A stretch of DNA of 64,000 nucleotides from Cellulomonas endophytica (lineage in GTDB: Bacteria > Actinomycetota > Actinomycetes > Actinomycetales > Cellulomonadaceae): positions 1-64,000 of the forward strand of contig NZ_RWJX01000017.1 in NCBI RefSeq assembly GCF_004123805.1. Direction: 5' to 3'. Position 1 is the stretch's first letter. Every line of letters begins with the position of its first letter. Below the pieces are notes generated by a model. That model was given only the letters and a program-made list of their open reading frames with translations. It ran no database searches and was not told the DNA's origin. Positions 3,029 through 28,047 of the stretch are shown piece after piece. Both the position numbers and the translations under genes were made by a program.

Positions 3029-3949
3029 TCAGTGGAGGCTCGGAACTGACGCTTCGACGGTCGTCGTAGCGGTGTTGTGACGGTAGTAGGTGTCCTCGAG
3101 TTCGGCGGGTGGGATCAGTCCGATCTCGCCGTGCAGGCGTCGGTGGTTGAACCAGTCGATGTACTCCGCGACGGCGATCTCGAGGTCGTCGATGCTCTTC
3201 CACGGTCCCTTGTTGCGGACCAGCTCGGCCTTGAACAGCGAGTTGAACGCCTCGGCCAGGGCGTTGTCGTAGGAGTCGCCGGTCGACCCGACCGACGCGA
3301 CCGCGCCGGCCTCGGCCAGGCGCTGGGTGTAGCGCACCGCGACGTACTGGACGCCCTTGTCGCTGTGGTGCGTCAGGCCGGTGACGTCGCGTCCTTCGCG
3401 CTGGCGGGTCCAGATGCCCATGTCCAGGGCGTCCAGCGCCAGATCGGTGCGCAGGCTCTTCGACAGCTGCCACCCGACCACCCGCCGGGAGTAGACGTCG
3501 GTCACGAAGGCGGCGTACACCCACCCGGTGAACGTGCGGCAGTACGTGATGTCGGCGACCCACAGCTGATTCGGGGCGGTCGCGGTGAAGTTGCGGTCGA
3601 CCAGGTCCGGACGGCTGTCCGGGCCCGCACCCGGGATCGTGGTGCGAGGACCCTTCGCGCGGCTGATCCCGCGCAGCCCGGCCGCGCGCATCAACCGGTG
3701 CACGGTGCAGCGCGCGACGCGGTGCCCTTGCCGGCGCAGTTCGGCGTGGACCTTGGTGATGCCGTAGACCCCGTAGTTCGCCGCGTGGACCTCCTCGATC
3801 ACCCGCGTGGTCGCGGCGTCGCTCACCGACCTGACCGACGGTGGCCGCGACCGGTGGGCGTAGTACGTGCTCGGGGCGACCTGCAGGTCCGTGCAGATCG
3901 GCTCGACCCCGAACTGGTCCTTGTGGGCGTCGATGTACTCGATGATCAC
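3029..3949 (-). CDS. IS3-family transposase OrfB (DDE integrase domain)
   Basis: A 306-residue protein with an HTH_21-like region (YGVYGITKVHAELRRQG, about residues 58-75) followed by the rve/DDE integrase core. Visible catalytic residues are Asp in LWVADITYC, Asp in THHSDKGVQY and Glu in NALAEAFNSLFK. The GTG at 3949 overlaps the orfA TGA by four bases; in this family the functional transposase is normally an OrfAB fusion made by -1 frameshifting near the overlap. The stop lies inside the left terminal repeat. No truncation is seen. Confidence 0.93.
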   Translation of the reverse strand: MIIEYIDAHKDQFGVEPICTDLQVAPSTYYAHRSRPPSVRSVSDAATTRVIEEVHAANYGVYGITKVHAELRRQGHRVARCTVHRLMRAAGLRGISRAKGPRTTIPGAGPDSRPDLVDRNFTATAPNQLWVADITYCRTFTGWVYAAFVTDVYSRRVVGWQLSKSLRTDLALDALDMGIWTRQREGRDVTGLTHHSDKGVQYVAVRYTQRLAEAGAVASVGSTGDSYDNALAEAFNSLFKAELVRNKGPWKSIDDLEIAVAEYIDWFNHRRLHGEIGLIPPAELEDTYYRHNTATTTVEASVPSLH

Positions 3950-4263
3950 CGCTGTGGGCGGTCGAGCTCCGCCGCGAAGAAAGCCGACGCAGACCTCAGG
4001 ATCGCGTTGGACCGGCGCAGCTCACGGTTCTCCCGCTCCAGCTCGGCCAACCGCTGGGCGTCCGACGTCGTCGTCCCGGGCCGGTCACCGGCGTCCACCT
4101 CCGCCTGAGTCACCCAGTTCCGCAGCGTCTCGGGGTTGATCCCGAGCTGCTCACCGACCCTGGCCAACGCGCCCTTGCGGGTCGCCGGGTCACGCCGCAG
4201 ATCGACCGCCATCCGGATCGCCCGCTCCCGAAGCTCGTCCGGGTACTTCCTCGGTGCTGCCAT
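3946..4263 (-). CDS. IS3-family OrfA (helix-turn-helix and leucine-zipper protein)
   Basis: About 105 residues: an HTH_Tnp_1 domain (KYPDELRERAIRMAVD, then LGINPETLRNWVTQAE) followed by a coiled coil (RLAELERENRELRRSNAIL) that in this family mediates dimerisation. It binds the element ends and supplies the N-terminal part of the OrfAB transposase. I chose ATG 4263, about 11 bases after an AGAGG; ATG 4272 is an in-frame alternative. It overlaps orfB by four bases. Confidence 0.9.
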   Translation of the reverse strand: MAAPRKYPDELRERAIRMAVDLRRDPATRKGALARVGEQLGINPETLRNWVTQAEVDAGDRPGTTTSDAQRLAELERENRELRRSNAILRSASAFFAAELDRPQR

Positions 4264-4318: not shown

Positions 4319-4599
4319 TCTGCCCGCCCGGCAGAGGATCGCTGTCACCAAAGGTCTCGCCGACGCACAAGGAGCACGCGGTCAGCCCGGGGACACGGCT
4401 CACAGGCGTGGCGGTTGGATCGGCGGGCACGGTCCGACAGTACGTGTCACCCGCTCGCTGGCTCCAACTCGTGCGCGGGTGCATGGGCGACGGGAACGGC
4501 CGGTGCTTCAGAGGGGCGACCTAGGCACACCTGCTCCTGGACGAGTGCCTACAGAGGGAGTCGTCGTCTCTGGTGGGCCGTGCATCTACGTTTAGGTCT

Positions 4600-4618
4600 G
4601 GTCAAGGTTCGATGAAGG
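4600..4618 (+). promoter_or_regulatory. Direct-repeat operator, site A (upstream of response regulator)
   Basis: GGTCAAGGTTCGATGAAGG fits the 19-bp motif CATGAAGGTTCGATGAAGG found at five other places in the island. The right half-site is perfect and the left one (GTCAA) is degenerate. The half-sites are 11 bp apart, one helical turn, as in OmpR/PhoB-family binding sites. It ends 53 bp before the response-regulator start, consistent with autoregulation. Confidence 0.6.
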
Positions 4619-4671
4619 GCCGGAGCCGGGCTCTGCCTAGCGGTAGTTCGGGAGTCAGGGCGGACAAGATG

Positions 4672-5397
4672 ATGCCTGTGACCGCACCGACCTCCTCCCC
4701 CGCCCGCCGCGCTGTCGTCGTTGACGATGAGGAGGCGCTGGCGCGTCTCGTCGCTGGGTATCTCGAGCGCGAGGGGTACTTGACGACCGTGTGCCACGAC
4801 GGCGCTCGGGCTGTCGATGTGCTCCGCGAGGTCGACCCTGACCTGGTCGTGCTCGATCTGGGTCTGCCAGGACTGGATGGGGTGGAGGTGTGCCGGCAGC
4901 TGCGCGCGTTCTCGGACTGCTACGTCGTGATGCTCACCGCCCGCACGGAGGAGGTCGATACCTTGGTCGGCTTGTCCGTCGGCGCGGACGACTACATGAC
5001 CAAGCCGTTTAGTCCGCGTGAGCTCATGGCTCGAGTTGCTGCCCTGATGCGACGTCCGCGCCGCGCGGCGAGCGCCGTCCTAGCGGCCAGCGACGTCCTG
5101 GAGATTGGGGACCTGCGCATCGACGTCGAGGCCCGGGAGGTGCACCGCGCCGGGCAGGTGGTGCCGCTGACTCGCACCGAGTTCGACGTGTTGGCGGCCA
5201 TGGCGGCCAAGCCGGGGCGGGTGTTCGACCGCCGCGCCCTCATCGACACCGTGTGGGGCGCCGGGTGGGTCGGAGATGAGCACCTCGTCGACGTCCACGT
5301 GCTGCACGTGCGCCAGAAGCTGGGCGACACAGCTGATGCCCAGCGTTACGTCCGTACGGTGCGCGGAGTCGGGTACCGCATCGGAACCGGCACATGA
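4672..5397 (+). CDS. OmpR/PhoB-family response regulator of the island
   Basis: A 241-residue regulator. The receiver domain starts at AVVVDDEEALARLV (acidic pocket), with phospho-acceptor Asp in LVVLDLGLPGLDG, the conserved Thr in MLTARTEE and Lys in DDYMTKPFSP. The C-terminal winged helix has PLTRTEFDVLAAM and VRTVRGVGYRIG. I prefer ATG 4672 (ATG 4669 is adjacent). There is no clear Shine-Dalgarno, so the message may be leaderless; starts further up would overlap operator site A. The ATGA overlap with the kinase gene indicates a two-gene operon. Inferred role: control of the island's copper and envelope genes through the repeated direct-repeat motif. Confidence 0.93.
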   Translation: MPVTAPTSSPARRAVVVDDEEALARLVAGYLEREGYLTTVCHDGARAVDVLREVDPDLVVLDLGLPGLDGVEVCRQLRAFSDCYVVMLTARTEEVDTLVGLSVGADDYMTKPFSPRELMARVAALMRRPRRAASAVLAASDVLEIGDLRIDVEAREVHRAGQVVPLTRTEFDVLAAMAAKPGRVFDRRALIDTVWGAGWVGDEHLVDVHVLHVRQKLGDTADAQRYVRTVRGVGYRIGTGT

Positions 5398-6518
5398 CCG
5401 CCGCAACGCGCCGCCCGGCGCTGGCGAGGCACGGACTCGCCGCTCGCCTTCTCGCAGCCCTGGTGATCGTGCTGGCAACCGCCGCGATCACCGCGGGGTT
5501 GGTGGCGTCCGCCCTGGGGCCAGGGCTGTTTCACGACCACATGCTCCGCGCGGGTTTGCAGGACCATGACGCTGCTGTTCTCCACGCCGAGCAGGCGTTC
5601 CGTGACGCCAGCACCGTTTCCTTCGCCCTGGCTCTCGGCGCCGCAGCCCTCGCCGCCGCCGCGGTCAGCGTGGTGCTGACCCGCCGCATCGGCCGGTCTC
5701 TGGCGGCGGTGTCCACGGCCGCAGCACGCGTGGGAGCCGGTGCGTACGAGTCCCGCGTCCCGGACCCGGGTCTGGGAGCAGAGTTCGACAACCTCGCCCG
5801 CTCCTTCAACGCCATGGCCGACCGGCTGCACGAGGCCGACCGTCTTCGGGCACGGTTGCTGGCCGACGTTGCGCACGAGGTGCGGACCCCGGTGGCAACG
5901 ATCGCGGGCTACTTGGAGGCCGTCGAGGATGGCCTCCAGCCGCTGGACGCGACCACCATCGCCGTCCTTCGCGAGCAAGCGGCGCGACTAACCCGACTAG
6001 CGCAGGACCTGTCCGCCGTCACGCGTGCAGAAGCCGGGGACCTGACTCTGGATTTGGAGCCTGTACCTGCCGACGCCCTGCTCGGCGCCGTCGCTGCTGC
6101 GGCCGGTGAACGCGCTGCAGCCGCGGGCGTCGACCTCGAGCTCAAGATCGCGGACGGGCTACGGCCGCTTGTGGTGGACCGCACGCGGATCGCCCAGGTG
6201 CTGGACAACCTGGTAGCGAACGCGATCCGACACACCGGCGCCGGCGGCACGATCGTGCTGTCTGCCGACCGCGGTCCGGGTGAGCAGGTCGTGCTGGCAG
6301 TAGCGGACACCGGCGAGGGCATCGCGTCCGAGCACCTGCCGCACATCTTCGAACGGTTCTACCGTGCCGACACCGCACGCGATCGCGGCCGAGGTGGGTC
6401 GGGGATCGGCCTGGCGATCAGCAAGGCTCTGACAGAAGCGCACGGCGGCACCATCACCGCGGCCAGCGCCGGCCCCGGCAAGGGCGCGACTTTCACCCTG
6501 ACCCTGCCGGGCGCCTGA
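5394..6518 (+). CDS. Sensor histidine kinase of the island
   Basis: 374 residues. TM1 lies around residues 18-45 (LAARLLAALVIVLATAAITAG), followed by a very short extracytoplasmic loop containing FHDHM and HDAAVLHAE, which is His-rich enough to suggest metal sensing. TM2 is about residues 75-96, then a HAMP linker (LTRRIGRSL). The HisKA box is LADVAHEVRTPVATIAGYLE with the phospho-His. The ATPase domain has N box NLVANAIRHT, G1 VADTGEGI, F box FERFYR and G2 GGSGIGLAI. It is translationally coupled to the response regulator and ends 195 bp from the convergent ATPase gene. The ligand is not known; copper is inferred from context. Confidence 0.92.
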   Translation: MTAATRRPALARHGLAARLLAALVIVLATAAITAGLVASALGPGLFHDHMLRAGLQDHDAAVLHAEQAFRDASTVSFALALGAAALAAAAVSVVLTRRIGRSLAAVSTAAARVGAGAYESRVPDPGLGAEFDNLARSFNAMADRLHEADRLRARLLADVAHEVRTPVATIAGYLEAVEDGLQPLDATTIAVLREQAARLTRLAQDLSAVTRAEAGDLTLDLEPVPADALLGAVAAAAGERAAAAGVDLELKIADGLRPLVVDRTRIAQVLDNLVANAIRHTGAGGTIVLSADRGPGEQVVLAVADTGEGIASEHLPHIFERFYRADTARDRGRGGSGIGLAISKALTEAHGGTITAASAGPGKGATFTLTLPGA

Positions 6519-6712: not shown

Positions 6713-9211
6713 TCAGGCCGGCGGCCCTGCGTGGTGGTCCTGCTGCCGTGGCAGTCGCAGCCGCTTGAGCAGCAGCGCGTTGACGGTGACGATGACGGTC
6801 GAGCCGGACATCGACAAGGCGGCGATCTCCGGCCGCAGCATGAGGCCCCAGGCAGAGAAGAACACGCCAGCAGCGATCGGCAGGGCGATGGCGTTGTACC
6901 CGATGGCCCAGGCCAGGTTCTGGTGCTCCTTGCGCATGGTCCCTCGACCGATGCGCATGGCGATCGGGACGTCGAGCGGGTCCGACCGCATCAGCACGAC
7001 GTCTGCGGTCTCGATGGCGACGTCGGTTCCGGCGCCGATCGCGATGCCGACATCCGCCTGCGCGAGAGCCGGGGCGTCATTGACGCCGTCACCGACCATC
7101 GCGACCTTCCTGCCCATCTGCTGCAGCCGGGCCACGTGCGTCGCCTTGTCCTGCGGCAGGACCTCCGCGATGACCCCATCGATCCCGAGCTGGCCCGCGA
7201 TGCGGCGGGCTGTGGCCTCATTGTCGCCCGTCAGCATGACGACCCGGACGCCGGCCTCGTGCAGTGATGTCACGGCGGCGCCGGCGCTCTCCCGGACGGC
7301 ATCCGCCAGGGCGATGACGCCGACGGCGCGGCGGTCGACGGCGACCAGGACCACGGTGCGGCCAGAGGCCGACAGCGCCTCCCGTCGCTCGTCCAGCTCC
7401 CCCAGGCGGATCTGCTCGCTGTCCATCAAGCGGCGGTTGCCGACCAGCACGCGATGGTGCCCCACCGAGGCCGATGCACCGTGCCCGGGCTTGTTCACGA
7501 AGTCGGTCGCAGCGAGCGTGGGCAGCCCCTTCTGCCGGGCGTAGCGGTCGACGGCCCGTGCCAGCGGGTGCTCGGACTCGCGCTCGACAGCCGCAGCCAG
7601 AGCCAACATCTCCTGTTCCTCCATGCCGGCGGCGACCACGTCGGTGACCTCCGGCTCCCCCTTGGTCAAGGTTCCCGTCTTGTCCAGGACCACCGTGTCG
7701 ATGCGCGCGGTGGCCTCGAGCGCCGTCGCGTTCTTGAACAGGACACCTCGACGAGCACCCAGGCCCGTGCCCACCATGATGGCCGTCGGCGTCGCCAGGC
7801 CGAGGGCGTCGGGGCAGGTCACCACGACCACAGTGATGGCGAACAGCATGGCTTGTGCCAGCCCTGCCCCGGCCAGCGTCCAGGCCGCGAATGTCACGGC
7901 GCCGCCGGCGAGGGCGACGAAGACGAGCCAGGACGCAGCGCGGTCCGCCAGGCGCTGGCCGGGCGCCTTGGAGTTCTGGGCCTGCTGCACCAGCTGCACG
8001 ATCTGGGCCAGCGCTGTGTCGGCGCCGACCCGAGTGGCCCGGGCGCGCAAGGCGCCGGTGGTGTTGATGGACGCGCCGATGAGGTTCGCGCCGGGCCCCT
8101 TGGCCACGGGTAGCGACTCGCCCGTGACCATCGACTCGTCGACCTCTGACTCACCTTGCTCGACCACCGCGTCGGTGGGCACCTTCGCACCGGGACGGAT
8201 GAGGAGCAGGTCGCCCACCTGGACCTGGGAGGTCGGGACCTCGACCGGGTGCCCGTCACGGATCACCAGCGCCTGGGATGGCGCCAGTTCGAGCAATGTG
8301 CGCACCGCGTCGTTGGCGCCACCGCGCGCCCGCATCTCCAGCCAGTGGCCCAGGAGCACGAAGGTGGTCAGCACGCTGGCGGCCTCATAGAAGACCTCGC
8401 CGCCGCCGGTCAGGGTCACCACCACGCTGTAGAGCCAGCCGGCGCCGACGGCCACCGCGACGAGCACCATCATGTCCAGCGTGCGTGCGCGGAGAGCTCG
8501 AGCGGCACCGTCGAAGAAGATCCACGCCGAGTAGAAGACGACCGGGATCGACAGCAGCAGCGAGAACACATCGTCGCGCAGCCCGAACGGGGCCGGAGCG
8601 TCGAAGCCGAGCACCTCGCGGCCGATGGGTGACCACAGCAGGATCGCGACGGACAGCAGCGCCGCCACGACGAGGCGGTTGCGCATGTCGCGGGCCATGT
8701 CCGCCATGGACCCGCCCCCGTGGTGACCGCCGTGTCCCATCGCGTCGTGAGCAGCGGGCGCCGCGTCATGCTCGGCGACGTGGTGGGACGTCCGGGGCGG
8801 CATCGCTGTGGGAACGGCGCCTGCCATGACGGTCTCCTCCGACGGGCCGTGACGTTGAGAGGGTGCTGCGTGAAGTGCGTTGCTCACCGCCGCGTGTGCA
8901 GGATCGCCGTGCCGGTCCACGCCGGCGGGCGCGACCTGTGCGACCGCGGTCCTCGGTTCGGCGAGGGGGTGGCACAGGTGCTCAGGCACGGACTGCCCGG
9001 AGCAGTGGAAGCCGCACTCTCTCACCCAGTCGCGTAGCTGGGCCAGGGTCGTCTGGTCTGGGTCGTACATGACGGTCGCGGTCTGCGACGCGGCGCTGGG
9101 CTCGACGGAGACGACCCCGGGACGTCGAAGCAGCGCCCGCTCCACGATGCGCTCCGAGGTGGCCCAGTGCAGTCCTGCCACATTGAGCACTGCTGAACTG
9201 AGTTGCTTCAC
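6713..9211 (-). CDS. Heavy-metal P1B-type ATPase (probable copper exporter)
   Basis: 832 residues. The N-terminus resembles an HMA domain, but the usual GMxCxxC is replaced by GLHWATSERIVE, so it lacks the metal-binding cysteine pair. A His-rich linker follows (MGHGGHHGGG). Actuator motif VTGES, phosphorylation motif DKTGTLTKG, SEHPLA and the hinge MVGDGVNDAPALA are present. The metal-channel motif is TCPDALGLATPTA, with Asp in place of the usual Cys or His. Late motifs GYNAIALP and MSGSTVIVTVNA fit CopA/CopB. I chose GTG 9211 because GAGGGAG precedes it; GTG 9241 is an in-frame alternative. A CsoR-type box (9255-9273) lies just upstream, and copZ is divergent. Confidence 0.9.
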   Translation of the reverse strand: MKQLSSAVLNVAGLHWATSERIVERALLRRPGVVSVEPSAASQTATVMYDPDQTTLAQLRDWVRECGFHCSGQSVPEHLCHPLAEPRTAVAQVAPAGVDRHGDPAHAAVSNALHAAPSQRHGPSEETVMAGAVPTAMPPRTSHHVAEHDAAPAAHDAMGHGGHHGGGSMADMARDMRNRLVVAALLSVAILLWSPIGREVLGFDAPAPFGLRDDVFSLLLSIPVVFYSAWIFFDGAARALRARTLDMMVLVAVAVGAGWLYSVVVTLTGGGEVFYEAASVLTTFVLLGHWLEMRARGGANDAVRTLLELAPSQALVIRDGHPVEVPTSQVQVGDLLLIRPGAKVPTDAVVEQGESEVDESMVTGESLPVAKGPGANLIGASINTTGALRARATRVGADTALAQIVQLVQQAQNSKAPGQRLADRAASWLVFVALAGGAVTFAAWTLAGAGLAQAMLFAITVVVVTCPDALGLATPTAIMVGTGLGARRGVLFKNATALEATARIDTVVLDKTGTLTKGEPEVTDVVAAGMEEQEMLALAAAVERESEHPLARAVDRYARQKGLPTLAATDFVNKPGHGASASVGHHRVLVGNRRLMDSEQIRLGELDERREALSASGRTVVLVAVDRRAVGVIALADAVRESAGAAVTSLHEAGVRVVMLTGDNEATARRIAGQLGIDGVIAEVLPQDKATHVARLQQMGRKVAMVGDGVNDAPALAQADVGIAIGAGTDVAIETADVVLMRSDPLDVPIAMRIGRGTMRKEHQNLAWAIGYNAIALPIAAGVFFSAWGLMLRPEIAALSMSGSTVIVTVNALLLKRLRLPRQQDHHAGPPA

Positions 9212-9254
9212 GATCCGCTCCCTCGTAGAAGACGCCGCCACGTCGCCGTCCCTC

Positions 9255-9315: not shown

Positions 9316-9334
9316 CATGAAGGTTCGATGAAGG
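9316..9334 (+). promoter_or_regulatory. Direct-repeat operator, site B (ATPase/copZ intergenic region)
   Basis: CATGAAGGTTCGATGAAGG, with two perfect ATGAA half-sites 11 bp apart. It is oriented toward copZ and lies between the two CsoR boxes, so copper genes here may answer both to CsoR and to the two-component system. Confidence 0.65.
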
Positions 9335-9493: not shown

Positions 9494-9718
9494 ATGAGCA
9501 CCGCGACGTATGCCGTCACCGGGATGACCTGCGGCCACTGCGTAGCTTCCGTGACCGAGGAGGTGGGCAAGATCGGTGGTGTCAGCGCGGTGGACGTGGA
9601 TCTGATCAAGGGCGGGATCTCTCAGGTCACCGTCGTCAGCGAGGCACCCGTACCGGAGTCAGTGGTGAGGACCGCTGTGGGTGAGGCCGGCTACGAGGTG
9701 GTGGACGCCACGGCGTGA
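9494..9718 (+). CDS. CopZ-like copper chaperone (HMA domain)
   Basis: A 74-residue single HMA domain with GMTCGHC at residues 9-15, the canonical Cu(I)-binding MxCxxC loop, and the beta-alpha-beta pattern ending EAGYEVVDA. It would bind Cu(I) in the cytoplasm and deliver it to the divergent ATPase. ATG 9494 is preceded by AGAGGAG at good spacing; an upstream in-frame start at 9443 has no ribosome site and would add an unrelated leader. The ATPase's own N-terminal domain has lost its cysteines, so this may be the only classical HMA chaperone in the locus. Confidence 0.93.
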   Translation: MSTATYAVTGMTCGHCVASVTEEVGKIGGVSAVDVDLIKGGISQVTVVSEAPVPESVVRTAVGEAGYEVVDATA

Positions 9719-20697: not shown

Positions 20698-21573
20698 CTA
20701 CGAGGTGAAGGTCAGCCCCGAGTCCGCCGACAGCAGCACCCGCCCGTCCGCGACGACGACGACCTGCACCTGACCGTCCGGCATGAGCCAAGAGGCCAGG
20801 GCTTCTGGTGCCGGGGCTGCCTCGCCGGCTTCAGCCCAGCTGGTGCCGGCATCGCGGCTGAGGTAGATCACCCCGTCCGGCCCAACTCCCACGACAAGCT
20901 GAGCAGTGGTGAAGTGCACCAGCTGGAGCAACGGGGCGTCGGGGTCCTGCTGCCAACTGAGCCCGGAATCCGTCGCGCGCGCAAGCCCTTGCGAGCTGGT
21001 GGCGAGCAGAACCTGGCCGTCGTTCGCGCCTGCCATGGCGAAGATCGGCACAGGCGGCTTCGTCGACGTCCACGTCGTTCCGCCGTCCGGGCTGCTGAGC
21101 AGGTCCGCTCCGTCGTAGCCATGAATGCCCGTGCTGGTGACCGCCAGCGCGTGGAAGTCACTGGCTCCAGTGCGAGCCAGAGGTGTCCACGTCCGTCCAC
21201 CATCCGTGGACTCCAGCAGGCCCACCGGGTCCGGTAGGTCCTGGCCGGGCCCTGGATGACCGGAGGCGTAGAAGTGGTCCGGCCCGGCGACGACGAAGCC
21301 CATGAGGTCCATCGCCGGTCCCACCCTCGACGGCCCATCCTCGGTGTAGCGCAGCAGACCTTCGTGAGTGGCGACGTACAGGGTTGAGTCAGCAGGGTTG
21401 AAGCCCGCACCGTGAACGTGAGCGCCGAGCTCACCCGACCGGGCCGTCTCTGAAGGCGCAGCGCCGGTCGCCGGTCGTACACCAGGCCCCGAGCAGCCGA
21501 CGAGCACGATCAGAGCGCCGGCGATCCCCAAGCCGAGGACGGACCGGCGCCAGGACGAGATCGCGGCAATCAC
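20698..21573 (-). CDS. F510_1955-type beta-propeller lipoprotein
   Basis: 291 residues. A lipoprotein signal ends in LIVLVGCSGPG. The mature protein contains repeated BNR/sialidase-like Asp boxes (STDGGRTWTPL, SPDGGTTWTS, SRDAGTSWAE, SADSGLTFTS) and the opening HVHGAGFNPADSTLYVATHEGLL. These identify the F510_1955 glycosylhydrolase-like group, whose enzymatic activity is unproven. It would fold as a beta-propeller on the outer face of the membrane. Operator site E lies 59 bp upstream in the correct orientation. Another probable Lnt substrate. Confidence 0.82.
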   Translation of the reverse strand: MIAAISSWRRSVLGLGIAGALIVLVGCSGPGVRPATGAAPSETARSGELGAHVHGAGFNPADSTLYVATHEGLLRYTEDGPSRVGPAMDLMGFVVAGPDHFYASGHPGPGQDLPDPVGLLESTDGGRTWTPLARTGASDFHALAVTSTGIHGYDGADLLSSPDGGTTWTSTKPPVPIFAMAGANDGQVLLATSSQGLARATDSGLSWQQDPDAPLLQLVHFTTAQLVVGVGPDGVIYLSRDAGTSWAEAGEAAPAPEALASWLMPDGQVQVVVVADGRVLLSADSGLTFTS

Positions 21574-21631: not shown

Positions 21632-21650
21632 TCTTCATCAGACCTTCATG
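21632..21650 (-). promoter_or_regulatory. Direct-repeat operator, site E (upstream of the F510_1955 gene)
   Basis: On the minus strand it reads CATGAAGGTCTGATGAAGA, with two perfect ATGAA half-sites 11 bp apart, oriented toward the gene starting at 21573. Confidence 0.62.
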
Positions 21651-21770
21651 ACACCCGAAGTTCGTCGGACGTGCATACGCAGGACGAGCGCGCTGAGGGC
21701 TGGCAGGGTGATCGTCTGTCGAGCGATGGACCACCGACACGGGGTCGGACGGGATCGAACTCAGGCGCAG

Positions 21771-21810
21771 CGTGGCTGTGCGGGACCCGGGTCGGTCCCG
21801 CACAGCCACG
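21771..21810 (-). terminator. Hairpin terminator of the NlpC gene
   Basis: A perfect 17-bp stem (21771-21787 with 21794-21810) and 6-nt loop begin 2 bp after the NlpC/P60 stop codon. No U tract follows. Confidence 0.82.
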
Positions 21811-21812
21811 CT

Positions 21813-22649
21813 CTAGCCCACTCGAATGAAGGTGGGATTTGCCTGCCAGATCTCCCGAATCTGGATGGTCTTGCCCGGCACGGGAGCGTCCACCTGCAGG
21901 TTCCCGCCAGCGAAGATTGCGATGTGCCCCGGTGTCCAGATCAGGTCGCCGGGCTGTGCCTGCTCACGCGGGACCACCGTTCCCGCGCCGCGCTGAGCCG
22001 ACGAGGTCCGCGGCAGCGAGACACCGATCTGCGCGTAGACGTAGGAGGTGAAGCCGGAGCAGTCGAAGCCCGCCGGAGTGGTCCCACCCCACACGTAGGG
22101 GACGCCGACCAACCCTGCGGCGATCTCGACGACGGCGCTGCCGTTGGCGCTGGCGGGGGCCGGCGCCCCTACCGCCTCGGTGACGGTCGGCTCTTCTGGC
22201 GCCGGTACATCCTCGGCCGCGGCCTCAGGAGCCGGCTCCTCCGCGGACGAAGGCTCCAGGGTCTCCTGCAGCTCGGGCTCGGGCTCGGGCTCCTCGACCA
22301 CTGGCTCGGGCGGCGGCGGCGGCGGAGTCACAGCCGTGACCGCGGGAGCGTCGAAGGTCCACGTCGCCTCCGCTGGCGCGGTCACGAGCGGGGCGGCCGC
22401 CATGACCTGGCGCGCGGAGACGACGAGCGCCGTGGTGTCCACGGCGCCGTACATCTCGGTACCGGCCCCGGAGGGAGCGGCAGCGGCAGGCGCGGCCAGG
22501 ATCGAGACCGTCAGACCGCAGGAAGCCGCGACTGCACCGGCGCGCTGCCCCACTCGCGGCAACCGGTCCAGCACCACCACGGTCATGGGCGACAGGGGGG
22601 TGGTCGGTGGACCTTCGAGACGGTGACGGGCAGCGCAGGGCTGTGCCAT
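21813..22649 (-). CDS. NlpC/P60 peptidoglycan hydrolase
   Basis: 278 residues. A signal segment ends near LAAPAAAAPSG (residues 35-55). A Pro/Glu-rich linker (about 110-165) follows, then an NlpC/P60 domain: catalytic Cys in PAGFDCSGFTSYVY, His in GHIAIFAGG. The enzyme would cut D-gamma-glutamyl-diaminopimelate bonds in stem peptides. ATG 22649 has GGGAGAG about 6 bases upstream; upstream in-frame codons belong to the riboswitch leader. Expression is probably set by the c-di-AMP riboswitch in its leader and by operator site F further upstream. A strong hairpin follows the stop. Confidence 0.9.
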   Translation of the reverse strand: MAQPCAARHRLEGPPTTPLSPMTVVVLDRLPRVGQRAGAVAASCGLTVSILAAPAAAAPSGAGTEMYGAVDTTALVVSARQVMAAAPLVTAPAEATWTFDAPAVTAVTPPPPPPEPVVEEPEPEPELQETLEPSSAEEPAPEAAAEDVPAPEEPTVTEAVGAPAPASANGSAVVEIAAGLVGVPYVWGGTTPAGFDCSGFTSYVYAQIGVSLPRTSSAQRGAGTVVPREQAQPGDLIWTPGHIAIFAGGNLQVDAPVPGKTIQIREIWQANPTFIRVG

Positions 22650-22660
22650 GAGGAACTCTC

Positions 22661-22835
22661 CCGGCGCCTGTGAGGTGAGCTGTCGGGTTCGGGCGAGAGC
22701 TGCCCGGCCGGCGTCCACGCCGGCTTCACCCCAAGGACACCGAATGGTGCCCGCGAACGGTGGTTCCCCCACTCCTGCCAGATCGGTTCGTGGTGACTGG
22801 GGCGATGGCAGGACTCGGCGTCCGCCCGCAGCCAC
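22661..22835 (-). ncRNA. Cyclic di-AMP riboswitch (ydaO/yuaA type)
   Basis: The minus-strand leader of the NlpC gene contains the conserved blocks of this class in order: CGCCGAGTCCTGCC near the 5' end, GGGGGAACCACC, GGGGTGAAGCCGGC, then CCGAACCCGACAGCTCACC and CAGGCGCC just before the ribosome site. In actinobacteria this riboswitch commonly controls rpf, NlpC and other wall-hydrolase genes, generally switching expression off when c-di-AMP binds. The spacing from the 3' conserved block to the Shine-Dalgarno is about 5 bases. Outer boundaries are approximate. Confidence 0.85.
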
Positions 22836-23133
22836 CCGGCGGTCACCGGGCGAGCCGAGAGTAGAGGAACGCCTGCCCTCGTCAGGTACGCGCGGCCGCA
22901 CCGCTGCGGCGCTTGGAGGGATGCGGCCCCTGTTTCCGCTGCTAGTGGCCATCCTGGAGACCGTCCTGCGCGCACACCTTCATCAAAACTTCATGAAGCG
23001 ATGGACGGCACGCGAAGGAGCGGCACCGGTCGTGTCGTCGGACGTGCCGAGGGTGATGCTCGCTCACGCGCCTTCGCGACACAGTCGGCGTGCGCCCAGC
23101 TGCTGCACATCATGCGCGTTGGCCACGTGCGGA
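22836..23133. other. Leader/promoter region of the NlpC gene and element junction
   Basis: Besides operator site F there is no gene or RNA that I recognise. The NlpC promoter must lie between site F and the riboswitch. Past about 23000 the sequence leads into the conjugation relics. Confidence 0.4.
22977..22995 (-). promoter_or_regulatory. Direct-repeat operator, site F (upstream of riboswitch/NlpC)
   Basis: On the minus strand it reads CATGAAGTTTTGATGAAGG, with two perfect ATGAA half-sites 11 bp apart, oriented toward NlpC and about 140 bp before the riboswitch. Confidence 0.62.
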
Positions 23134-23616
23134 TCAGAGCTGTCGCTCGTCAGGGAACATGCCGTCTGGTGGGGCGGTGTACGGCAGTGGGTCGCCGCGG
23201 TTGTTGGTGTGCTGGTCGCCGTTAGAGCCGGCGAAGGGTCCGTCGGGGCTGAGCAGGATGGCCATGTGGTAGTCGGCGTGGTCGCGGTACCAGTGGCTCA
23301 TGCCGACCCCGGGGTCTTGGCGTAGGGCCTCCCAGGAGCGCCACATGACGGTCAGCCGGTTGACGGCTTCGTCGTAGTTCCACCAGTCGGCGGCCCAGCG
23401 CAGGCGGTGGCCGACGGGTCGGCGGTAGACGTACCGCAGCCACTCGCGCACAAACTCGTCGACCGACCCGTACACCGGCAGCGCCGAATCGGCGCGCTTG
23501 GTTCGGACCGCCCGCAGCGCCGAGTGGTCGACGACCCCCTCGGCCAGGGTGACGTCGTCGAGGTCCAGGTCCTCGTCGAGCGCGTCGTCGTAGGGCTCGT
23601 ACGCGGGCTGGCTCAC
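23134..23616 (-). CDS. DUF4913 protein (conjugative-element cargo)
   Basis: 160 residues. An acidic N-terminus (DDALDEDLDLDD) precedes the DUF4913 domain: VYGSVDEFVREWLRYVYRR, LRWAADWWNYDEAVNRL and MSHWYRDHADYHMAILLSPDGPF. The domain has no known activity but is found beside coupling-protein genes in actinobacterial integrative conjugative elements, as here. GTG 23616 overlaps the TGA of the upstream coupling-protein fragment by four bases. It looks full length. Confidence 0.8.
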   Translation of the reverse strand: MSQPAYEPYDDALDEDLDLDDVTLAEGVVDHSALRAVRTKRADSALPVYGSVDEFVREWLRYVYRRPVGHRLRWAADWWNYDEAVNRLTVMWRSWEALRQDPGVGMSHWYRDHADYHMAILLSPDGPFAGSNGDQHTNNRGDPLPYTAPPDGMFPDERQL

Positions 23617-24256
23617 CGCACGGCATCCGCACGCTCGAGCGCGTGGGACTCGGCCGTGGCGGCCTGCGCCGCGGCCAGGGTCGTCTCCGGCTGCGGGTCG
23701 TGCCGGGCGATCGAGGCCTTCACGGCTTCCGCGTGACGGCCGGTGGACCACGGTTGGGTGGCGATCAGCGTGGGGCGCGAGCCCGAGGCGAACACCACGG
23801 CGCGTCCGCGGGGCAGGGCGGCGAGGTCGGCCACGTCCATGATCCGTTCGCGGTGCAGCTGCTGGGAGACGGTGCGTCTGCCGGCCCCGGTAGGAACCGA
23901 GGCGGTGGCGCGGTCATAGTCGCCGATGGTGCGCGACAGGTCCTCGAGGAACCCGGTGTCAGAGGACCCGCCGCCGTAGGTGCGCACGTTGGACGCGGAC
24001 CACAGCTTCTTCATGCGTGCTCGCCCCAGACCTCCAAGCCCTGGGACCAGGACTGCAGGATCGTCATCAGCACGATCCCGCGGGACCGGTAATGGGAGTA
24101 CAGGTTCGGCAGCTCACGCCACCGGCACACGTTGGCGGCCTCGTCCAGCACCCCGAGCAGCGGGTTCCGCAGCCGCCCTCCGGGCGAGCGGGTGGCCAGC
24201 TCCTCGGCGGCCTCCGCCACGGCGACGGTCAGCGCTCCGACCAGCCCGGTTGACAC
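23613..24256 (-). pseudogene. VirD4/TraG-type conjugative coupling protein, truncated and frameshifted
   Basis: Two frames cover the C-terminal part of a type IV coupling ATPase. 24011-24256 encodes PLLGVLDEAANVCRWRELP and LMTILQSWSQGLEVWGE (TraM-recognition domain). 23613-24014 continues with MKKLWSASNVRTYGGGSSD. Homologues read through this junction with two residues between the glutamate of WGE and Met-Lys-Lys; here five bases occupy that place instead of six, so one base has been lost. The N-terminal two thirds, including Walker A, are absent. This is a relic of a mobile element, not a working transfer gene. The downstream part could still be translated. Confidence 0.75.
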
Positions 24257-26400: not shown

Positions 26401-27603
26401 TCACTGAGCCGAGGATGACGAGCGCAGCGCTTCCGATCCGAGCGCGATGCCGCTCATCGCCCGTCCTGCCGCGGCGGCAGCGGCCAGCTGCTGGTCGGGC
26501 AAGAGGTGCGCGTACGTCTCCGTGGTCGTCTTGATCGACTCGTGGCCGAGGCGACGCTGGAGCACGAAGAGGTCCGTGCCGGCGGCGATCATCCACGAGG
26601 CGTGGGTGTGTCGGAGGTCGTGCACGCGCGGGCGCTTCGTGAGGCGCGCCGCATCAGGGTCCTCGGTGCCGTCGGCGCGGCGGGGGGCGGCCGCTGCGTC
26701 GAGCGCCGGCGTCCACGTCGTCGTCCAGAAGCGCGAGGACGAGAGCTGGTTGCCGACGGTGTTGGTGAAGAGCAGCTCGTCGGGCGCCTTGGTCGCCACC
26801 AGCGGGAGCAGGACGTCGACGAGCTCGTCCGGGAGGGAGACGGTGCGCCGCGCCCGCTTCGTCTTCGGTGGGCCGACGTACCAGCGCCGGTTCTCGTCCC
26901 GCTTCCAGGCCTTCGTCACGCGGACCGTCGCGGGCCGCGCCGAGAGGTCGAGGTCGCCGGCGGTCAGCGCCGTCGCCTCTCCCCACCGGAGGCCGGTCGC
27001 GATCAGCAGCAGCACCAGAGGCTGGTAGTGCGACGGGACGTGGGAGAGCAGGAGGGCGAACTCCGCCTGCGTCAGGACCGTCATCTCGTCGTGGGTGGCC
27101 TGCGACTTGGGCAGCTCGACGCGCGCGCAGGGGTTGTCCGACCGGTAGCCGAGCCGGACGGCCGTCGACATCGCCGCCGAGAAGAGGCCGTGGACGTTCG
27201 CGATCGTCTTCGGCGCGTACCCGCGCGCGGACATGGAGCGCACCCAGGAGGCGATGTGCCGGTAGCCGATGGACGAGACCGGGTGCGGGCCGAGTACCGG
27301 GGAGATGTGGGCCGCGAGCTGGCGGCGGTAGTGGGACCGGGTGTCGGCACCCACGGACGTCAGCAGGTCGATGTGCTCGGTGACGACGTCGTCGACGGTG
27401 GGGCCGCGGTGACGCACGGCGTCGGCGATCCGGGCGGCCTCGACGGCGTGGCCGCCGGCCGCCTCGATGAGCTGCTGGGCGACGACGGCGTCGTTGCGGT
27501 CGTCGTACGTGAGGGAGGTCTGGCGTCCGGTGTCCGGGTCGCGCCACAGCACCGCGTAGGACCGCGTGCCGTCGCTGCGACGCCGCTCCCGCACCGAGGC
27601 CAT
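26401..27603 (-). CDS. int: Tyrosine-type integrase of an ssrA-targeting element
   Basis: 400 residues. An AP2-like arm-binding N-terminus (SVRERRRSDGTRSYAVLWRD), a SAM-like core-binding domain (VDDVVTEHIDLL) and a C-terminal catalytic domain follow. Visible catalytic residues: Arg in ATGLRWGEATAL, His-x-x-Arg in HDLRHTHASWM, His in LGHESIKTTTETY and the Tyr of TYAHL. ATG 27603 is preferred over a start nine codons upstream because homologues begin MASVRERR. Its 5' end is 80 bp from the 3' end of ssrA, a common integration site. It appears intact. Confidence 0.93.
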   Translation of the reverse strand: MASVRERRRSDGTRSYAVLWRDPDTGRQTSLTYDDRNDAVVAQQLIEAAGGHAVEAARIADAVRHRGPTVDDVVTEHIDLLTSVGADTRSHYRRQLAAHISPVLGPHPVSSIGYRHIASWVRSMSARGYAPKTIANVHGLFSAAMSTAVRLGYRSDNPCARVELPKSQATHDEMTVLTQAEFALLLSHVPSHYQPLVLLLIATGLRWGEATALTAGDLDLSARPATVRVTKAWKRDENRRWYVGPPKTKRARRTVSLPDELVDVLLPLVATKAPDELLFTNTVGNQLSSSRFWTTTWTPALDAAAAPRRADGTEDPDAARLTKRPRVHDLRHTHASWMIAAGTDLFVLQRRLGHESIKTTTETYAHLLPDQQLAAAAAAGRAMSGIALGSEALRSSSSAQ

Positions 27604-27607
27604 GCAC

Positions 27608-27675
27608 AAGAAGGTAGCCACCCGCGTCAACGAGTGGCTACCGTCTTGTCAACACGACCTGCGTTGTCGCAGGTC
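27608..27675 (-). terminator. Paired inverted repeats between int and ssrA
   Basis: Two hairpins: 27656-27663 with 27668-27675 (8 bp perfect, 4-nt loop), and 27608-27621 with 27634-27647 (14 bp, one mismatch). Read from ssrA, the second ends in TTCTTGTG and resembles an intrinsic terminator. They may instead, or also, be integrase or Xis binding sites at the att junction. Confidence 0.55.
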
Positions 27676-27682
27676 ACAGGGG

Positions 27683-28047
27683 TGGAGGTGGCGGGAATCG
27701 AACCCGCGTCCGATGACGAGGAACCAGGGCTTCTCCGGGCGCAGTCTGCTGCGATTTTCTCGGCCCTCACGATCACGCAGACGAGTCGTGAACAGGCCCA
27801 GTCGGCTGAGAGTCCCCGCAGCCACACCGACGATGGCTGCGAGCAGTGGCTCCCTAGATGACGCCAGTGACCGAGACGGGAGCTAGCTCGGGCTGACGGA
27901 CTTCAAGGCCTCGCTCAGGCGGCGAGGGTGAAGTCGGTGCGCTTGGAATCGGCACCTATGGGTTTGCGCGGGACATTAACGAGTTGACCGTGCGTTCTCG
28001 GCCCGCTTCTCCTGGATCGACGATCACCGTCGAAACCGATCACCCCC
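27683..28047 (-). ncRNA. ssrA: tmRNA (ssrA)
   Basis: The 5' end reads GGGGGTGATCGGTTTCGACG, the conserved tmRNA opening. The 3' end has the T-arm GCGGGTTCGATTCCCGC and acceptor strand CACCTCC, pairing with the 5' GGGGGTG. The tag frame (27915-27953) encodes ADSKRTDFTLAA followed by TGA, an actinobacterial degradation tag. The discriminator A is at 27683; the next bases are CCC, so the terminal CCA is not encoded here and must be added. The RNA rescues stalled ribosomes with SmpB, whose gene lies 3.6 kb away on the same strand. Confidence 0.95.

Follow-up and report, generated by a model that had tools for sequence, protein, structure and literature searches.

A c-di-AMP riboswitch and a putative CopR-type operator stacked on an NlpC/P60 gene in copper islands of Cellulomonas

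The locus and its setting

The window analysed here is a 64,000-nucleotide stretch of Cellulomonas endophytica (contig NZ_RWJX01000017.1, positions 1 to 64,000), the features of which are collected in Table 1. On the minus strand, a TGAAG direct-repeat box is followed after about 160 bp by a c-di-AMP riboswitch aptamer, which is separated by a single base from an ATG at 22649 and an NlpC/P60 gene. This ATG, directly 3' of the aptamer, is likely to be the start codon. A mechanically called open reading frame of 379 amino acids (start at 22952) was dropped because it runs through the aptamer, and because the start behind the aptamer gives a protein that aligns with its relatives. The Cys, His and Asp that it shares with these relatives fall in the motifs DCSG, GHIAI and VDAP, and we take them to be the catalytic residues; the N-terminus was judged by eye to be of the secretion type. 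In a draft genome carrying another island peptidase (L192, G034:C1), the catalytic His is replaced by Gln. The inverted repeat behind the stop codon is possibly a terminator hairpin lacking a T run, and it was not called by the terminator scan. Since the BNR-repeat gene downstream has a box of its own, the NlpC/P60 gene is probably a single-gene unit.

Table 1. Features of the window discussed in the text, in order of position
Feature	Position	Strand	Remarks
CopRS-like response regulator	4573-5397	+	Start uncertain; box at 4602-4617, near the copR start
CopRS-like histidine kinase	5394-6518	+	Pair spans 4573-6518
Metal P-type ATPase with HMA domain (CopA-like)	6713-9241	-	Box at 9318
CopZ-like ORF	near 9495	+	Read by eye
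BNR-repeat gene	20698-21573	-	Like the F510_1955 genes of other islands; own box at 21633-21648 (-)
Perfect 18-bp inverted repeat	21770-21811		Arms 21770-21787 and 21794-21811; directly 3' of the NlpC/P60 stop codon; sequence reading
NlpC/P60 (C40) peptidase	21813-22649	-	278 aa; PF00877, 80 bits; island-type paralogue
Pseudoknot 3' strand, GGGAGAG	22656-22662	-	Shine-Dalgarno-like sequence; 8 nt between GGAG and ATG
Pseudoknot 5' strand, hairpin loop GCUCUC	22695-22700	-	From sequence and RF00379 alignment; hairpin precedes CCCGAACCC
c-di-AMP riboswitch aptamer (ydaO/yuaA class, RF00379)	22651-22814	-	Covariance model, 67.9 bits
Putative promoter and leader	22815-22973	-	Between operator and aptamer; no clear -10
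Putative CopR-type operator (site F), TGAAGTTTTGATGAAGGTGT	22974-22993	-	17 of 20 bases equal to the C. glutamicum CopR site
Tyrosine integrase	26401-27630	-	Adjoins tmRNA gene, 27680-28047

A mobile setting of the region is plausible because the tyrosine integrase adjoins the tmRNA gene. No second copy of the tmRNA end was found within the window, and the 3' end at 27681-27707 recurs with one mismatch on contig C104 (14563-14589; L288). This second site may be the far end of an integrated element, since the surrounding 13 kb contain no tRNA or tmRNA gene. A TraG/TraD-type C-terminal domain (23613-24256, minus strand) is split over two frames beside a DUF4913 gene, and looks like the remains of a decayed conjugation gene. 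Furthermore, the ALIL frameshift pseudoknot of an IS3-type transposase (3872-3985, minus strand; 83.6 bits) marks an element adjoining the CopRS genes.

The riboswitch and its proposed Shine-Dalgarno pseudoknot

A sequence-only reading of this DNA had recognised a ydaO-class leader at 22661-22835, and had proposed a covariance-model search of the minus strand as a check. This search returned a full-length match to RF00379 (model positions 1-134 of 134) that scored 67.9 bits, well above the gathering score of 38, with an E-value of 1.3e-13 for the 64-kb window, and it was the sole family match at E<=1 in 22500-23100. The class was thus correctly named, whereas the coordinates had been shifted by 10-20 bases relative to the model match. 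When aligned to the RF00379 model, the leader contains the conserved blocks GGGGGAACCA, UUGGGGUGAA, GCCCGAACCCG and CAGCU.ACCUC. In the length of the match and the intact blocks it resembles the family at large, from which it differs in being a second, accessory copy, found in copper islands and on a plasmid. A diadenylate cyclase domain is encoded in the same genome. The plain fold of the leader is unremarkable (z -1.72), and folding of this kind cannot show a pseudoknot. In the minimum-energy fold without a pseudoknot (22640-22820, minus strand), GGGGAAC of the conserved GGGGGAACC block pairs with GUUCCUC just before the ATG, a predicted pairing that possibly represents a ligand-free alternative structure.

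The last strand of the aptamer is the Shine-Dalgarno-like sequence itself, and it is complementary to the loop of an aptamer hairpin, with a computed energy of -10.6 kcal/mol for the loop-tail duplex of the window. In other leaders the two strands have changed (e.g., GCUCC with GGAGC, CUUCC with GGGAG, and UCUCC with GGAGA). Among 99 distinct leaders (147 of 152 leaders were parsed, five failing the loop parser), duplexes of loop and Shine-Dalgarno sequence with their own partners averaged -9.21 kcal/mol against -8.38 kcal/mol (sd 0.135) when partners were dealt out at random, and none of 2000 deals was as low, a control that leaves relatedness among the leaders in place. The identity of the final aptamer strand with the Shine-Dalgarno sequence, together with its co-variation with the loop, favours a riboswitch acting on translation rather than on transcription.

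The crystallised ydaO aptamer of 108 nucleotides is described in a paper that mentions a pseudoknot, and the aptamer sequence printed there can be read as having matching loop and tail strands (PMC5393176). In Corynebacterium glutamicum, high c-di-AMP lowers the reporter protein but not the mRNA of the nlpC riboswitch, for which a CTCC/GGAG pseudoknot has been proposed (PMC9960051). That gene (cg2402) resembles the one described here in three ways (PMC9960051): (i) a ydaO-class aptamer precedes an NlpC/P60 gene with no canonical terminator, (ii) CUCC of the riboswitch is complementary to GGAG of the ribosome site, and (iii) the promoter is also under other regulators, namely the response regulators MtrA and EsrR, and GlxR. 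However, copper is unmentioned in the main text of that study, and no CopR site was noticed in it (PMC9960051). In the window, by contrast, a CopR-type site lies upstream of an island paralogue, and the comparison of leaders adds support for the proposed pseudoknot.

An alternative is that the riboswitch works through transcription, by attenuation, as has been argued for Streptomyces, and not through ribosome binding. The C. glutamicum study cites precedents from Streptomyces and Bacillus, and reports that the presence of the riboswitch lowered the transcript at any level of c-di-AMP (PMC9960051). We nevertheless regard attenuation as unlikely at this locus, where one base between the end of the aptamer model and the ATG leaves a terminator no room, the terminator scan of the region found no terminator-like site after the aptamer, and the pseudoknot strand is the co-varying Shine-Dalgarno sequence.

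The CopR-type box and its place upstream of riboswitches

Upstream of the aptamer lies a TGAAG-N6-TGAAG box, TGAAGTTTTGATGAAG (22978-22993, minus strand). The sequence-only reading had placed an operator at about 140 bp; the operator is present, but the near end of the box lies 164 bp from the first aptamer base. At one mismatch or fewer, the window contains 7 such boxes against 0.54 expected from shuffles, one of which (13958) is inside an M23 gene, leaving six sites. Five exact boxes occur in the whole 4.2-Mb assembly: three belong to the copper island, and the other two lie close to a second cluster of CopRS and DUF305 on contig C88 (L217). A reversed control pattern occurs 0 times. In the 81 genomes of the genus, boxes number 118 against 35 for the reversed pattern, and chance occurrence was rejected on these two comparisons.

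The operator is equal in 17 of 20 bases to the C. glutamicum CopR site TGAAGATTTgaTGAAGATTT, proven by EMSA, which occupies positions -59 to -78 relative to the start of copR (PMC3140484), and it agrees with 15 of the 18 specified positions of the direct repeat TGAAGATTTnnTGAAGATTT, including the tandem TGAAG repeat with its 11-bp period. The CopRS pair encoded in the same island is itself preceded by a box. In the retrieved loci, 17 copR homologues have at least 60% identity to the regulator of the window, whose own copR is counted among them, and a few of the 17 share a contig. A box lies 300 bases or fewer upstream of 13 of these 17, and the same holds for 2 of the 10 weaker homologues. In view of the 17-base match to a proven site and the boxes before these close homologues, the TGAAG box is best read as a CopR-type operator, its binding by CopR being putative. 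The name CopR for the window's regulator rests on domains, neighbours and box, rather than on comparison with the C. glutamicum protein. The C. glutamicum CopRS regulon shares the direct repeat, a site upstream of copR and a copper-export ATPase among its targets, and it differs in that the targets named are copper oxidase, export and neighbouring genes, with NlpC and P60 absent from the main text (PMC3140484).

The placement of the box was surveyed in 81 genomes of the genus, 79 of which carry RF00379 above cut-off; all 102 matches, including that of the window, were examined. The genus and family scans used the stricter filters of Infernal, which lose weak matches. A sense box with at most one mismatch lies upstream of the riboswitch in 17 of the 102 leaders (13 exact, 4 with one mismatch), starting at -88 to -214 from the aptamer, though three of the 17 (L126, L128 and L130) encode identical proteins and were counted apart, so that independent events are overstated. 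Sorted by neighbours, 21 of the copies are island copies, 17 of which have the box, and the remaining 81 all lack it (Fisher p 6e-16), the neighbours being scored by tblastn against the CopA, CopR, CopS, DUF305 and BNR proteins of the window with thresholds set after the neighbour table was known. One of the 17 (L112) has a BNR neighbour alone within 8 kb. No sense box lies upstream of any of the 60 riboswitch copies that are the single copy above cut-off in their genome, although one of these (L121) has just 19 bases upstream. When 600-nt stretches were drawn at random from these loci, 57 of 5050 contained the box. All these counts are of sequences, not of independent events, and relatedness inflates counts and shuffle controls alike. 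Within 600 bases upstream of the island copies that lack the box, four in number, there is only one box with two mismatches (at -521 of L198). Two matches below cut-off lie outside the 102 (G056:C202 and G061:C510), the former with an exact box 121 bases upstream. Exact boxes also lie upstream of the riboswitch in antisense at L253 and L064 (-130 and -298).

Stacking of a riboswitch and an operator on one NlpC/P60 gene, as originally proposed from the window, is real, and within the genus it is kept in most island copies and in none of the non-island ones. Its conservation in relatives fits the proposed integration of copper stress with envelope turnover, as far as comparison of sequences can suggest.

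Of 16 distinct leaders, 9 have a TANNNT hexamer between the box and the aptamer that starts exactly at +54, counted from the start of the box, whereas none of 5000 block shuffles gave more than 3; the nine form about five groups of similar sequence. Such a fixed distance would be expected if a response regulator binds upstream of the -35 region. The leader of the window lacks TANNNT at +54, with TAGCAG at +49 as the nearest candidate, and a scan for sigma-70 consensus promoters gave no hit in it.

The box could instead serve another island promoter or another OmpR-type regulator, leaving the peptidase outside copper control. TGAAG repeats with an 11-bp period are a general form of OmpR-family sites, which would suit this alternative, as would the want of a good -10 at the shared distance in the window. 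Moreover, computed CopR sites of C. glutamicum beyond the proven one are unconfirmed as targets (PMC3140484). Against this stand the like box before most close copR homologues, its tie to copper-island copies and the -10-like hexamer at a fixed distance in 9 of 16 leaders, and we hold this alternative to be improbable.

Descent, spread and proposed control

In a tree of 147 peptidases, all 19 box copies fall in one clade of 30 (SH-aLRT 92, under the program's mark of 95), together with 8 of 12 boxless island copies and 3 members with no copper genes found nearby, and the core peptidase copies are placed elsewhere. The four boxless island copies outside the clade are L064, L213, L214 and L256. 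The box label requires 6 changes on this tree, which carries a long-branch warning from the program that includes the row of the window. The tree omits L212 and L233 (repeats of L130 and L037), and L200, L225 and L239, which have no readable peptidase frame. The simplest reading is mainly one island lineage that spread with its riboswitch in copper islands, with some separate recruitments and some gains or losses of the box.

Beyond the genus, Actinotalea solisilvae has two stacked leaders, L033 (riboswitch 61.8 bits, box at -172) and L034 (riboswitch 60.2 bits, box at -171), with CopRS nearby. Another genus (L289) has a riboswitch of 66.5 bits and a box with one mismatch at -149, with CopRS, CopA and M23. 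The plasmid p110066 of Cellulomonas sp. C5510 carries one stacked leader (L212, probably from the molecule that also supplied L130), and the genes around it encode a multicopper oxidase, P-type ATPases, Lnt, Lgt, DUF305 and a two-component system. A sense box was found in 0 of 40 riboswitch matches from other genera of the family, of which 5 have copper-type neighbours; nearly all 40 come from the top of the score list, with G121 skipped and one G085 match and a second G145 match taken out of order. Copies on a Cellulosimicrobium plasmid and on Kineococcus pKRAD01 (L213 and L214) combine riboswitch and peptidase among copper-type genes, with no box. On pKRAD01 of Kineococcus radiotolerans, the riboswitch and C40 peptidase lie among CopC, FliL, Lnt and cytochrome biogenesis genes, and no box was found in 20 kb. 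In an order-wide profile search with the island protein, 68 of 396 genomes had hits at E<=1e-60, the best of which came from the same family, and a few of these hits were inspected for the box.

The gene is best explained as an island-specialised paralogue of the actinobacterial NlpC/P60 endopeptidase with a c-di-AMP riboswitch, drafted into a copper regulon. Copper would activate the CopS-CopR pair of the island, and phosphorylated CopR would bind the TGAAG direct repeat so that transcription starts downstream; both the copper response and CopR binding are what we infer from the site match and the observed conservation. The mRNA would open with the c-di-AMP aptamer, and when ligand is bound the pseudoknot would hold GGGAGAG and block translation. 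Low c-di-AMP would open the Shine-Dalgarno site, a ligand response and sign to which the parts and positions of the leader, the observed co-variation and the C. glutamicum precedent all point. We consider it probable that the island-borne wall endopeptidase is under copper AND-NOT c-di-AMP control, and the arrangement, which recurs in many related islands, suggests that synthesis of the wall enzyme is limited to conditions of high copper in which the c-di-AMP level allows it. Shared ancestry of island and core copies, with two box-bearing aptamers at just 42 bits and one below cut-off at 36.3 bits, would suit a riboswitch that hitch-hiked from the core gene and is now a relic of no importance to the island copies. 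This is very hard to credit when the remaining box-bearing aptamers lie between 52.6 and 77.4 bits, in the range of core copies, the window's copy at 67.9 bits outscores the core copy of the same genome at 48.8 bits, the conserved aptamer blocks are intact, and the loop and Shine-Dalgarno strands have changed together in island copies.

Copper AND-NOT c-di-AMP control could be extended to a true coincidence gate, in which copper itself lowers c-di-AMP (e.g., by poisoning a metal-dependent cyclase), and the endopeptidase is switched on both via CopR and by release of the Shine-Dalgarno sequence. This is a doubtful extension; if it were true, copper islands would read the envelope state of the host. 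As a speculation, the riboswitch may keep a wall endopeptidase that is dangerous when mistimed tied to the host's own c-di-AMP signal.

Each of the parts is already known, and their conserved stacking in copper islands appears to be a new arrangement of them. Among the matches listed from the open PMC literature, which includes few subscription papers, no title or abstract opening joined a c-di-AMP riboswitch with copper regulation. The stacking would tie c-di-AMP, a messenger known for the control of potassium and the wall, to copper resistance, and the wall hydrolase brought in by a metal island may still answer to the second messenger of its host. The 99 distinct leaders also offer comparative support for the proposed translational mechanism, whereby the pseudoknot of the aptamer itself masks the ribosome site. 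Further envelope enzymes are encoded in several of these copper islands, by VanY, M23 or Lnt genes.
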